A stretch of DNA of 64,000 bases from Candidatus Altimarinota bacterium (GTDB lineage: Bacteria > Patescibacteriota > Gracilibacteria > BD1-5 > UBA6164), in NCBI GenBank assembly GCA_013368515.1, contig JABWCI010000001.1:1-64000 (forward strand), written 5' to 3'. Below, piece after piece: positions 52,125-55,515 of the stretch (position 1 is the first letter of the stretch; every line of letters begins with the position of its first letter). Under the pieces are notes generated by a model. That model was not told where the DNA came from and searched no databases. It saw only the letters and a program-made list of their open reading frames with translations. The position numbers were made by a program, and so were the translations under genes.

Positions 52125-52155
52125 AAAAACTGCCAAATGAACTGCCCCCTAAAAA

Positions 52156-52184
52156 GTAGAGCGAAATAAAAAACGCTCTACTCT
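52156..52184. terminator. bidirectional terminator next to avd
   Basis: AGTAGAGCG and CGCTCTACT stem with A/T loop and T runs on both strands, between the plus-strand small genes and the end of avd. Confidence 0.85.
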
Positions 52185-52191
52185 TTTAAAT

Positions 52192-52530
52192 TTAACTTAA
52201 TTTTCACCAAGCAAAAAGTTGTTTTGATACACTTTCTATCAAAATATTAACTTCAATATATTTATTTATATTTATAATTTTTAAATCTCTACTTAATCTA
52301 AAATAAAGCCTTAATAACTCTATTTTTTCTCTTGCAGTTGATATATTTTTAGATTTATCAATTTTACAATTAGCTTTATAAATATTTGATATTAAGTTTA
52401 TAACTTCTTTTTTCATAGTATCACCTAAACTATATTTATATTCTCTTGTAAATTCTTTTATTATCTGAAAAGTTAAAATAAGTAAATCATAACTAGTCTT
52501 GTATACTGGTAAGTTTTCATATGTAGCCAT
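52192..52530 (-). CDS. avd: DGR accessory variability determinant (Avd)
   Basis: A 112-residue four-helix-bundle protein of the Avd/S23 type: MATYENLPVYKTSYDLLIL, TREYKYSLGDTMKKEVINL, STAREKIELLRLYFRLSRD and YIEVNILIESVSKQLFAWG. Avd forms a pentamer that binds the reverse transcriptase and template RNA in diversity-generating retroelements. A UGA (Gly) near the end hides four residues. Its start overlaps the 3' end of the RT gene by 38 bases. Confidence 0.88.
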
Positions 52531-53234
52531 TTTTTATTTTTATTAAAGTATAATTATTTGATATATAAAAATAATTCCAAAAATAAGGTGAAACATTATT
52601 TAAAAGTATCTTTTTCCTCATTTTATATGATTTATAACTTTTAAACATTCATAAATAAGAGTTTATAATTGAAATAAAATCTAATTTTAACTTAATATCA
52701 ATTTTATTATTGTTTTCATTTAATCTATGATTTAATTCTTGTATTTTCTGATAAAAAAATCATATAGTCCTTTTTCTTAAATAAGTCCTATGTGGTTTTA
52801 TAAAAACTCATAAAATATCAAGATATATCAAGTTTTAAAATATAACAATCTTCTGTATAATTATTACTACAACTTCTAATTGCTTTATTTATTCTTTCTA
52901 TTCAAAAACTAGTTCATCTTCACTTTATACAACTATAACTATCATATATAAATTCATTTTCAAATATTGGCGATATATAATTATATAGTAAATGATGAAT
53001 TATTCTATCTCTAAAATTTCAAGCAAATATTTCCCTTTTTACAGGTGTTTTTTGTATAAAGTAAATGCTTTTTCAAACTATATACTTTCAGTTTATAAGT
53101 TCTTCATATAAACTTAATAAATTACTTTCCAAATTTATCTCAAACTCTAATTGAGTTTTTTTATTTCTTTTATTTTTTCTAGCATCATAATATGCTATAA
53201 ATAAATTTTGTAATAATTTTTCATTATTTCTCAT
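52493..53234 (-). pseudogene. DGR reverse transcriptase with internal deletion
   Basis: The N-terminal frame (53234 down to a TAG at 52788) has RT fingers: [40 protein letters not shown] and YILKLDISGYFMS. The C-terminal frame (about 52825 to 52493) has ILGVFIKPHRTYLRKRTIG and FISIINSYLGMFKSYKSYK, the thumb-side end of DGR RTs. The palm with YxDD is missing and the two parts are in different frames. Both frames share ATTTTATGAGT at the junction (52807-52817), pointing to a microhomology-mediated deletion, probably of somewhat over 100 codons by comparison with DGR RT layout. Catalytically dead as it stands. Confidence 0.85.
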
Positions 53235-53250
53235 AATTTTTAAATTTAAA

Positions 53251-53436
53251 TAATCCTTGACACCTAACAGACTCAAACCGTTAGACTTATTATTCCTATT
53301 ACGGAAAACTTTAGAATTACCTCTGTTGAATTCTATGTTAGAAGCAGTGTCTTTATCAATAGAGTCTCACCAAAAGTAAGCGTTATCTTCTACGTTTCAA
53401 AAGTCAATCCCATTAGTGTTCCTGTAACCAGGGAAA
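53251..53436 (-). repeat. DGR template repeat (TR)
   Basis: 186 bases, 87 percent identical to 54209-54394 without gaps. On the minus strand it reads like the target's last 61 codons but with AAC/AAT at variable sites (NTNGIDFGNVEDNAYFWGDS). It lies just upstream of the RT start. By hand count 22 of 60 coding-strand adenines are changed in the variable repeat, against 3 of 126 other bases. Confidence 0.95.
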
Positions 53437-53488
53437 AGTTAAGTAATCTCTTACTTTGTTTATATAATCAAAAATCATATAAATCTTT

Positions 53489-53516
53489 TAATACTAGTTT
53501 TTAAACCAGTGTATTA
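53489..53516 (-). ncRNA. hairpin in the TR RNA leader
   Basis: On the minus strand ACTGGTTT and AAACTAGT pair across AA, extended by TAAT/ATTA, about 50 bases upstream of the TR. It may be part of the template RNA structure recognised by RT/Avd. Confidence 0.4.
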
Positions 53517-53577
53517 CTAGGATTATAAGGCACTCTTTATATTCCAAATTAAAATATAAATGCTCGCCAAAATTTTT

Positions 53578-53997
53578 TTATTTATACTTTAAAATCAATT
53601 TTTCTAAATCATTTAGAAAATCTTTAAAATCATTTTTATCAATATTAATATTCTTATTTTCTAGTTTTTTATCAAGATAAACTAGATTATCAATATTGTA
53701 GTTTAATTTATTTCATCATTCATATTCCTCTTTCAACTTAAAGTCATTATTTTCACATTTCTCATATAAAATATATCAGATTCTTTCTTTTTTTAACTCA
53801 CTTAAGTATTTTGATAAAGCATTTTTAGGAAATCAAACTAATTCATATCATCAAGTTTGTTTTATTTTAAATCAAAATTTATAGCTTAAAAATCTTGAAT
53901 CAGAATCAAATGTTCTATAAAATGCTCAAGACAAAAAAAGTAGTATCTTCTCTTTATTAATAGCTTTTTGATTTTTCCAATAATCATAATTTTTCAT
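53578..53997 (-). CDS. MutS-like (MSL) DGR accessory protein
   Basis: A 139-residue protein resembling the first domain of MutS: LLFLSGAFYRTFDSDSRFLS, IKQTGGYELVGFPKNALSKY and KERIGYILYEK. A short MutS domain-I-like gene is a recurrent accessory of some DGRs. It lies between the target gene and the TR on the same strand, which supports that role. No ATPase or DNA-clamp domains. Confidence 0.65.
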
Positions 53998-54129
53998 AAC
54001 ATAAATTTAATATATAAAAATTTATTTTTTCCTTACGTCAAAAATAAAAAACCTTCTAAACTAGATTTTACTAATTTAAAAGATTTTTTTTAATCAAAAA
54101 TTGTCAAATTAACGAATGGTCGAATGCAA

Positions 54130-54157
54130 TTTTATTCCAAAATGGAATAAAATTTTT
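54130..54157. terminator. terminator-like hairpin below the target gene
   Basis: TTTTATTCC and GGAATAAAA stem around AAAAT with a T run on the plus strand; in the minus direction the U run is weaker. It follows the VR cruciform. Confidence 0.55.
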
Positions 54158-54166
54158 AGCTCTGCA

Positions 54167-54210
54167 TAAGTAATAGTAACCAATCACTATCGTTCTTGGA
54201 CTATTACTTA
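54167..54210. repeat. cruciform inverted repeat at the VR end
   Basis: TAAGTAATAGT (54167-54177) and ACTATTACTTA (54200-54210) are a perfect 11-bp inverted repeat, with inner CCAA/TTGG pairing. On the coding strand it begins at the stop codon of the target gene, immediately after the VR. Known DGRs carry such a hairpin beside the initiation of mutagenic homing; the TR lacks it. Confidence 0.75.
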
Positions 54211-55119
54211 ATCCTTGACACCTAACAGACACAAACCGTGAGACCTATTACCCCTATAACGGAAACCTTTAGAATAACCGCTGTAGAATACTACGTAAGA
54301 AGCAGTGACTTTATCATCAGAGCCTCACCAAAAGAAAGCGTAATCTTCTACGCGACAAAAGCCATTCCCATTAGTGCTCCTGTAACCAGGGAAATTTTTT
54401 CTATCGTTTCATAGTTTTACAAATATATATCTACTAAGTTCTGGGCTATCCATTTCTTCATCAGTAAGTGATCTCATTCCAAGTTCTTTTAATCTATTAT
54501 CAGATGCAGTATGTCAAAAATGATAATGTCATCTTATATTTTTTGTTATTAATTCAGGATTATTTGTAATTTCACTTTCTGGAAAATTTGATTTTGCTCA
54601 ATTTGATAATTCGTGTGTTAACATACTATCATCCGCTTCTAAAAATAATTTTACATAGATTTTTTTTCATCCTAATGAGTTTAAAACTATTTCATCCATT
54701 CATTCATAAGTATTTAAAGTCAGTTTAGCTATATCTGCTACTTCTCATACATAATTTAAAACTTTATTATATCAATCTTCTGTAAATATAGATTTTAATA
54801 AATCTGAAAAAGTTCATAATTCATTTAAATTACTTGTTTTTACATTTACTGAAACATTTGATAGTTTTGATAATAATTCTTGTCATAATTTTGAAAATTT
54901 ATCATCTGTTACAAATTTAGTAAGGTCTTCTTTTTCTTCACTACTCAAAACTTCATCATTTTGAAGTTTTGTAAATAAAAATACTATATATTCTCTATTA
55001 AAAGTTTTTGCTTTTGATAGTATAACATCTAATCATCTCATAAAATCAGCAGATTTTACAAGTTGTTCTGCAGTAGTACATACTGTTGATATCTCTTCTA
55101 ATTCTAAATTATTTATCAT
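54208..55119 (-). CDS. DGR target protein with C-type-lectin-like variable domain
   Basis: A 303-residue protein without a signal peptide or membrane helix, so probably cytoplasmic. The N-terminal 130 residues are helical. A C-type-lectin-like domain follows (DEIVLNSLGGKKIYVKLFLE, RGHYHFGHTASDNRL, SPELSRYIFVKLGNDR), ending in the variable repeat: FPGYRSTNGNGF through YSKGFRYRGNRSH and LLGVKD. Variable sites relative to TR include N to S, R, Y or H, D to G or V, G to C and S to C. First gene of the DGR cluster. Confidence 0.88.
54209..54394 (-). repeat. DGR variable repeat (VR)
   Basis: The 3'-terminal 186 bases of the target gene, same length as the TR at 53251-53436. Of 25 differences, 22 fall on TR adenines (10 to T, 9 to G, 3 to C on the coding strand) and 3 on TR thymines. 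Confidence 0.95.
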
Positions 55120-55283: not shown

Positions 55284-55310
55284 CAAATTTTTTATAGATA
55301 TTAAATCATT

Positions 55311-55409
55311 GTTTGTTGTTTGTTGTTTGTTGTTTATTGTTTGTTGTTTATTGTTTGTTGTTTATTGTTTGTTGTTTGTTGTTTGTTGTTTGTTGTTTGT
55401 TGTTTGTTC
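55311..55409. repeat. fourteen tandem heptamers, TTTGTTG type
   Basis: About 99 bases with a period of seven (TTTGTTG, with three TTTATTG variants). Between the terminator hairpin and the nrdB stop codon. No coding role is visible on either strand. The 396-base interval 55120-55515 holds this tract, the hairpin at 55234 and the target-gene promoter region. Confidence 0.9.
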
Positions 55410-55515
55410 ATATTTATATATAAAATTGTAAATATTATTTTTAAAACTATATTTGTCAAAATATTTTTATCTATATTTTATCAAGATTTATTTTTCAGTT
55501 TGTTTTTTTATTTAT

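Follow-up and report, generated by a model that had tools for sequence, protein, structure and literature searches.

The stretch at positions 52192–55119 of the window, by which we mean the whole 64,000-nucleotide segment analyzed (positions 1 to 64,000 of contig JABWCI010000001.1 in the Candidatus Altimarinota bacterium assembly GCA_013368515.1), raises the question of whether it encodes a diversity-generating retroelement (DGR) and, if so, whether that element can still rewrite its target gene. The source is a 28-contig draft genome with a completeness of 94.8% (∼5% missing), and the flanks of the cassette are chromosomal, encoding a pyridine nucleotide-disulphide oxidoreductase, the small chain of ribonucleotide reductase, NrdR, an HflX-like GTPase, and DAHP synthase. 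The initial annotation, made from the sequence alone, had assigned the locus to a genome that reads UGA as glycine. This reassignment was confirmed for the small-genome host bacterium, and is sound because TGA stands at P-loop, dinucleotide-fold, and other conserved glycines of the neighboring housekeeping genes.

The template repeat (TR, 53251–53436) and the variable repeat (VR, 54209–54394) aligned without gaps over 186 bp and differed at 25 positions, 22 of them at a template A, three at a template T, and none at a template C or G. With 60 A and 126 other bases in the TR, substitutions thus fell on 22 of 60 adenines vs. three of 126 other bases (Fisher p = 7.4e-10), in agreement with the hand count and the adenine specificity originally proposed. 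The VR forms the final 61 codons of the target gene and ends exactly at its stop codon. A search with the N-terminal part of the reverse transcriptase (RT) recovered relatives in 17 of the 77 genomes of the order, and an RT alignment matched 82 of 353 class genomes, although some of these matches may be to RTs of another kind. The DGR loci of these relatives yielded 28 further TR/VR pairs; in a pool of 26 (one dubious pair and one divergent locus were dropped), 457 of 475 differences lay at A. A chance repeat is ruled out by the A bias together with these homologous loci. That the repeats represent an ordinary duplication, with an A bias arising by chance or from mutational bias, is exceedingly improbable given the strength of the bias (p = 7e-10), the same A pattern in the active-looking homologous loci of relatives, and the presence of an accessory variability determinant (Avd) and RT remnants next to the repeats.

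The three differences outside template adenines all fall on a T, each time the second base of its TR codon (ATT, ATT, and GTT), where the VR reads AAT, GAT, and GGT and an orphan VR from another genus (G031) reads CGT, AGT, and GCT. Judged from these two VRs, the three sites fit adenines lost from the TR, whose codons may once have been AAT, AAT, and GAT, so that all 25 differences would be readable as adenine sites. Compared with active-looking DGRs, the surplus of non-A differences is marginal (p 0.06–0.08).

The gene calls and repeats all lie on the minus strand, as first described, in the order target/VR, MutS-like gene, TR, RT remnant, and Avd; in the sister species G052, the order on one strand is target, MutS-like gene, TR, Avd, and RT. 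The locus is a genuine DGR, combining a TR/VR pair with adenine-confined differences, an Avd, and a target of predicted lectin fold that carries the VR at its 3′ end. We classify it as an inactivated DGR because the RT motifs (I/V/L)GxxxSQ and YxDD have both been deleted. Profile searches bore out both accessory proteins of the initial annotation. The intact Avd (52192–52530, 112 aa) scored 55 bits against Pfam bAvd (cut-off 40) and matched the NCBIfam model for DGR Avd (DivGenRetAVD) at E 7e-16, although under the cut-off of that model. The MutS-domain-I-like protein (53578–53997, 139 aa) scored 33.2 bits against Pfam MutS_I (PF01624; cut-off 20.6) and has a homolog, 58% identical, at the same place in a sister locus (L035); comparison with the sequences of solved structures gave nothing useful. 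A MutS-like accessory gene is reportedly listed in the Wu 2018 survey, and among the relatives examined both this gene and the target type of the window are rare. Two other loci, L025 (1426–3372) and L031 (377–2119), encode DGR-type RTs with a MutS-domain-I-like region fused C-terminally, which suggests that the RT and the MutS-like protein work together.

The RT is preserved in two pieces. The N-terminal piece (52788–53234) runs up to domain 3 (LDISGYFM), is 68% identical to residues 3–156 of the intact G052 RT, and gives a weak RVT_1 match; the C-terminal piece (52493–52822, LGVFIKPHRTYLRKRT...) lies in another frame and is 58% identical to residues 295–404 of the same protein. Intact RTs of ∼400 aa with IGNLTSQ and GRYVDDF occur in the sister species G052 and G053, and motifs of the IGNLTSQ/YVDD type are present in the sister loci L012, L014, and L013; in the window both are deleted. 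Searches of a phage collection with the G052 RT returned phage DGR RTs. The gene had been described as broken, which holds, but the damage goes beyond the reading frame, since domains 4–5 with YVDD (∼470 bp) are also gone. At the junction (52806–52815) a single copy of TTTTATGAGT is left, whereas both sisters carry the 12-mer TTTTATGAGTAT twice, 470 bp apart, at the two edges of the segment that the window lacks. Since 470 bp does not divide evenly into codons, the lost active site and the frameshift are both accounted for by one repeat-mediated deletion, and from this comparison a single deletion between short direct repeats appears to have removed ∼470 bp of the RT (domains 4–5, YVDD) and shifted its frame. 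A split or frameshifted RT that still works is ruled out: the counterpart of sister residues 157–294, which include YVDD, was not found in the genome of the window, and a second RT of that genome stops before YVDD. The short RT frames in a first table of relatives had suggested systematic truncation across the group, which full translation ruled out.

This second DGR remnant lies on another contig (C23:44794–45936; loci L001 and L045), where the RT is cut off at domain 4. The adjacent target, with a Fib_succ_major domain, runs off the contig end; the remnant has no RNA leader, and no TR for the VR-like end of its target was found anywhere in the genome.

An assembly error or a minority variant, with most cells retaining an intact RT and an active DGR, would also produce a truncated gene, and the draft state of the 28-contig genome and the intact appearance of the rest of the cassette speak for it. 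The junction, however, sits on a 10–12 bp repeat, both copies of which are kept by the two sisters at a spacing of 470 bp. Natural deletions mediated by repeats leave this pattern, and a repeat of that length is too short to collapse a normal assembly; with the second RT of the same genome truncated as well, we consider this explanation unlikely. Alternatively, the RT may be lost and the cassette served in trans by an RT whose gene lies on a phage, on a plasmid, or in the portion of the genome absent from the assembly. Diversification in trans has been reported for degenerate DGR loci of Thiohalocapsa (PMC10907252), and at 94.8% completeness the genome leaves some room for such a gene; against this, no RT with a YVDD region was found in the genome and the TR itself seems to have lost adenines, making service in trans very unlikely. 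No intact RT was found in this 95%-complete genome, and the cassette is therefore probably inactive.

The target (54208–55119, 303 aa, translation table 25) consists of an N-terminal helical module (residues ∼1–125) and, at the C-terminus, a C-type-lectin-like domain whose last part is the VR. A search of 288 genomes of the class found one relative of the C-terminal 173 residues, at 60% identity in G031, and a marginal partial match in a third genome; no relatives were found in the viral and genome collections, and comparison with solved-structure sequences was uninformative. The relative in G031 is the orphan target introduced above (L057:1303–2004, contig C14), with a strongly conserved framework, a divergent VR part, and no TR in its genome. 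The lectin-like character originally suggested for the target found no Pfam lectin match. AlphaFold models of the target were poor (mean pLDDT 52–53; C-terminal part 52), and plain Foldseek returned no match; VIA-align of the C-terminal model, in support of that suggestion, nevertheless placed C-type lectins or lectin-like proteins in nearly all of its top 14 entries (Z 6.3–8.2; next Z 2.8). With low confidence, given the quality of the model, the C-terminus may therefore adopt a C-type lectin fold.

The N-terminal module (window 54748–55119; loci L067–L088) occurs in 18 of the 77 genomes of the order, has no Pfam family, and is lineage-specific. Judged by eye, it is mostly carried by proteins with repeat-rich, WG-like C-termini, and a copy in G037 carries another lectin-like tail. 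The DGR targets of the sister species are pilin-like, and in several relatives such pilin-like targets have an N-methylation signal and a Fib_succ_major domain; the target of the window is of another type, in which no signal peptide, membrane, or hydrophobic segment was seen. The intracellular location proposed as probable in the initial annotation agrees with the lack of these segments; the location itself remains a deduction, set against the pilin-like targets of the sisters, and from its sequence the target is plausibly a cytoplasmic binding protein. A long TTGTTGTTTG microsatellite lies upstream of the target gene (55305–55410).

Two hairpins accompany the cassette. Directly downstream of the VR, and absent after the TR, is an imperfect 42-nt hairpin (54168–54209; fold of 54090–54215, z = −4.1) with a GATA loop closed by 2 bp inside. 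Its core, CGATAGTGATT, is common to the sister species G053, where the hairpin (L036) has the same shape and the core CGATAGYGATT; in the relative L040 the stem is a clean 6 bp with a GATA loop. A downstream hairpin or cruciform with a GRNA loop was sought by the criteria established for phage BPP-1, in which a hairpin behind the VR is required for efficient retrohoming (PMC3240598). At the 3′ end of the cassette, a terminator-like hairpin (52144–52190) carries the motif GCCNCCTAAAAAGTAGA, which occurs only twice in the genome (52144–52160 and C23:44794–44810), in both cases at the 3′ end of one of its two DGR loci; the two cassettes may therefore share an origin or a boundary.

Immediately 5′ of the TR lies a structured RNA leader (53438–53568) of five helices, of which one long-range helix closes next to the TR; the structure is based on covariation across 15 and 25 loci. 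Aligned by sequence, the 15 loci show pairing in 92% of cells and compensatory changes at 24 of 27 pairs, and the covariation score is 0.760 vs. 0.251 for shuffles and ≤0.161 for slid partners. The leader of the window keeps nearly all pairs and scores 88.8 bits, a match unique in the 64 kb; the leader is found again at 24 further class DGR loci, and the model picks up ten loci of the class that had no part in its construction. Among 84 phage and viral DGR-RT loci, 29 matched at E < 0.005, and in nearly all of these the match sits upstream of the RT by a few hundred bases; BPP-1 gave no match to the model. At loci with a known TR, the leader usually stops beside it; in L039 the match lies ∼370 bases away. 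An additional hairpin of ∼50 bases stands between leader and TR at L035:4720–4771 and L040:5095–5147, the former with the CGATAGYGATT core seen elsewhere behind the VR.

Regarding the leader as a wholly new RNA was abandoned, as Rfam RT-7 (RF03028) covers a relative: it describes a structured RNA that hits the viral DGR contig L181 at the coordinates of the leader model. The leader of one relative reached 44 bits vs. the RT-7 gathering score of 116.8, whereas the window leader and most relatives tested had no RT-7 match; across Rfam, no family matched the window leader at E up to 1, and the hits at E 4–5 are of chance level. We take the leader as an uncurated subfamily of known RT-associated RNAs; its likely functions are to bind the RT and Avd and to delimit the template on the 5′ side. 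The two RT pieces, Avd, the MutS-like protein, and the target contain no further stops, and with these frames still open and the leader at 88.8 bits, the loss of the RT looks recent.

The altered genetic code bears on the template as well. In genomes with UGA=Gly, the glycine codons of TRs are GGN and not UGA: across 11 TRs whose target genes write glycine mostly as UGA, TGA accounts for 4 of 54 glycine codons in the TR vs. 305 of 393 upstream in the same genes. A clean, UGA-specific avoidance was not upheld. Synonymous codons ending in A are depleted as well (OR 0.12, vs. 0.023 for TGA), AGA is likewise rarer (OR 0.033), and the p-values of these counts are too strong because the TRs are homologous to each other; TRs avoid A in general and UGA and AGA most, so that the UGA effect is partly a general avoidance of A. 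Fib_succ_major paralogs without an adjacent TR gave no clean contrast as a control, as many resemble former or remote VRs. Fib_succ_major paralogs such as L154 and L144 (G051) are pilin-like lectin proteins of genomes in which no RT was detected, and their last 60 codons are still UGA-poor for glycine, possibly a fossil of past DGR targeting. The TR of the window carries two TGA (Gly) codons in frame; at one of them the VR has TGT (Cys). A UGA codon in such a TR could vary to Cys or Trp, and a TR in the standard code could not carry UGA in frame. One joint reading, tentative and somewhat short of an even chance, would assign the RNA immediately before the TR to a conserved subfamily, so far uncurated, of structured DGR template leaders, with its long-range helix fixing the 5′ limit of the template that is copied. 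In UGA=Gly bacteria, on this reading, UGA glycine codons have also been purged from the TR, because mutation would strike their adenine, and are kept only where it is useful to vary among Gly, Cys, and Trp. If true, a recoded genetic code would leave a readable imprint on a mutagenesis template.

We consider it very probable, from these comparisons, that the locus is a formerly working DGR that diversified its target by mutagenic retrohoming, subsequently lost ∼470 bp of its RT via direct repeats, and is now inactive with a fixed VR. The RT, with Avd, would have copied the RNA spanning leader and TR into cDNA, inserting random bases wherever the template has an adenine; with the identical 3′ end and the post-VR hairpin as guides, this cDNA would have taken the place of the VR with which the lectin-like target ends. 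A single deletion between short direct repeats would then have removed domains 4–5 with YVDD and shifted the frame, leaving the VR in its last written state. The repeat signature, the intact relatives, the deletion with its repeats, and the covarying RNA are direct observations; past activity, present inactivity, and a binding role of the target are deduced. So read, the locus offers a snapshot of DGR death by a single repeat-mediated deletion with everything else still intact, a strongly covarying template RNA structure whose part in priming or in defining the TR boundary can be tested, and a naturally occurring encounter of an altered genetic code with adenine-specific mutagenesis.

Among the closest known systems are the degenerate loci of Thiohalocapsa PB-PSB1, in which missing or pseudogenized DGR machinery occurs beside homologous intact loci (PMC10907252); that case involves mobile elements and service in trans, whereas the window has a short-repeat deletion and no intact RT was found. 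With the BPP-1 DGR (mtd-avd-TR-brt) the locus shares an A-specific TR/VR, an Avd-family protein, a lectin-like target, a hairpin behind the VR, and RT homology, the intact RT of G052 being 29% identical over 358 aa to Brt. It differs from BPP-1 in gene order, in its RNA leader, which was not found there, in an Avd without a BLAST match to BPP-1 Avd, and in the form of the post-VR hairpin, which in BPP-1 is GC-rich with a 7–10 bp stem and a 4-nt loop (PMC3240598). DGRs are well documented in candidate-phyla bacteria (PMC8144416; PMC10221324), and the cassette itself is thus no surprise in this lineage. Apart from its RT inactivated by deletion, it resembles, as a putative member, the Candidate Phyla Radiation DGRs of clade 2 of Roux et al. 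2021 (PMC8144416), which likewise are cell-encoded cassettes with Avd, TR, and RT and whose targets often carry no recognizable membrane or other known domains.
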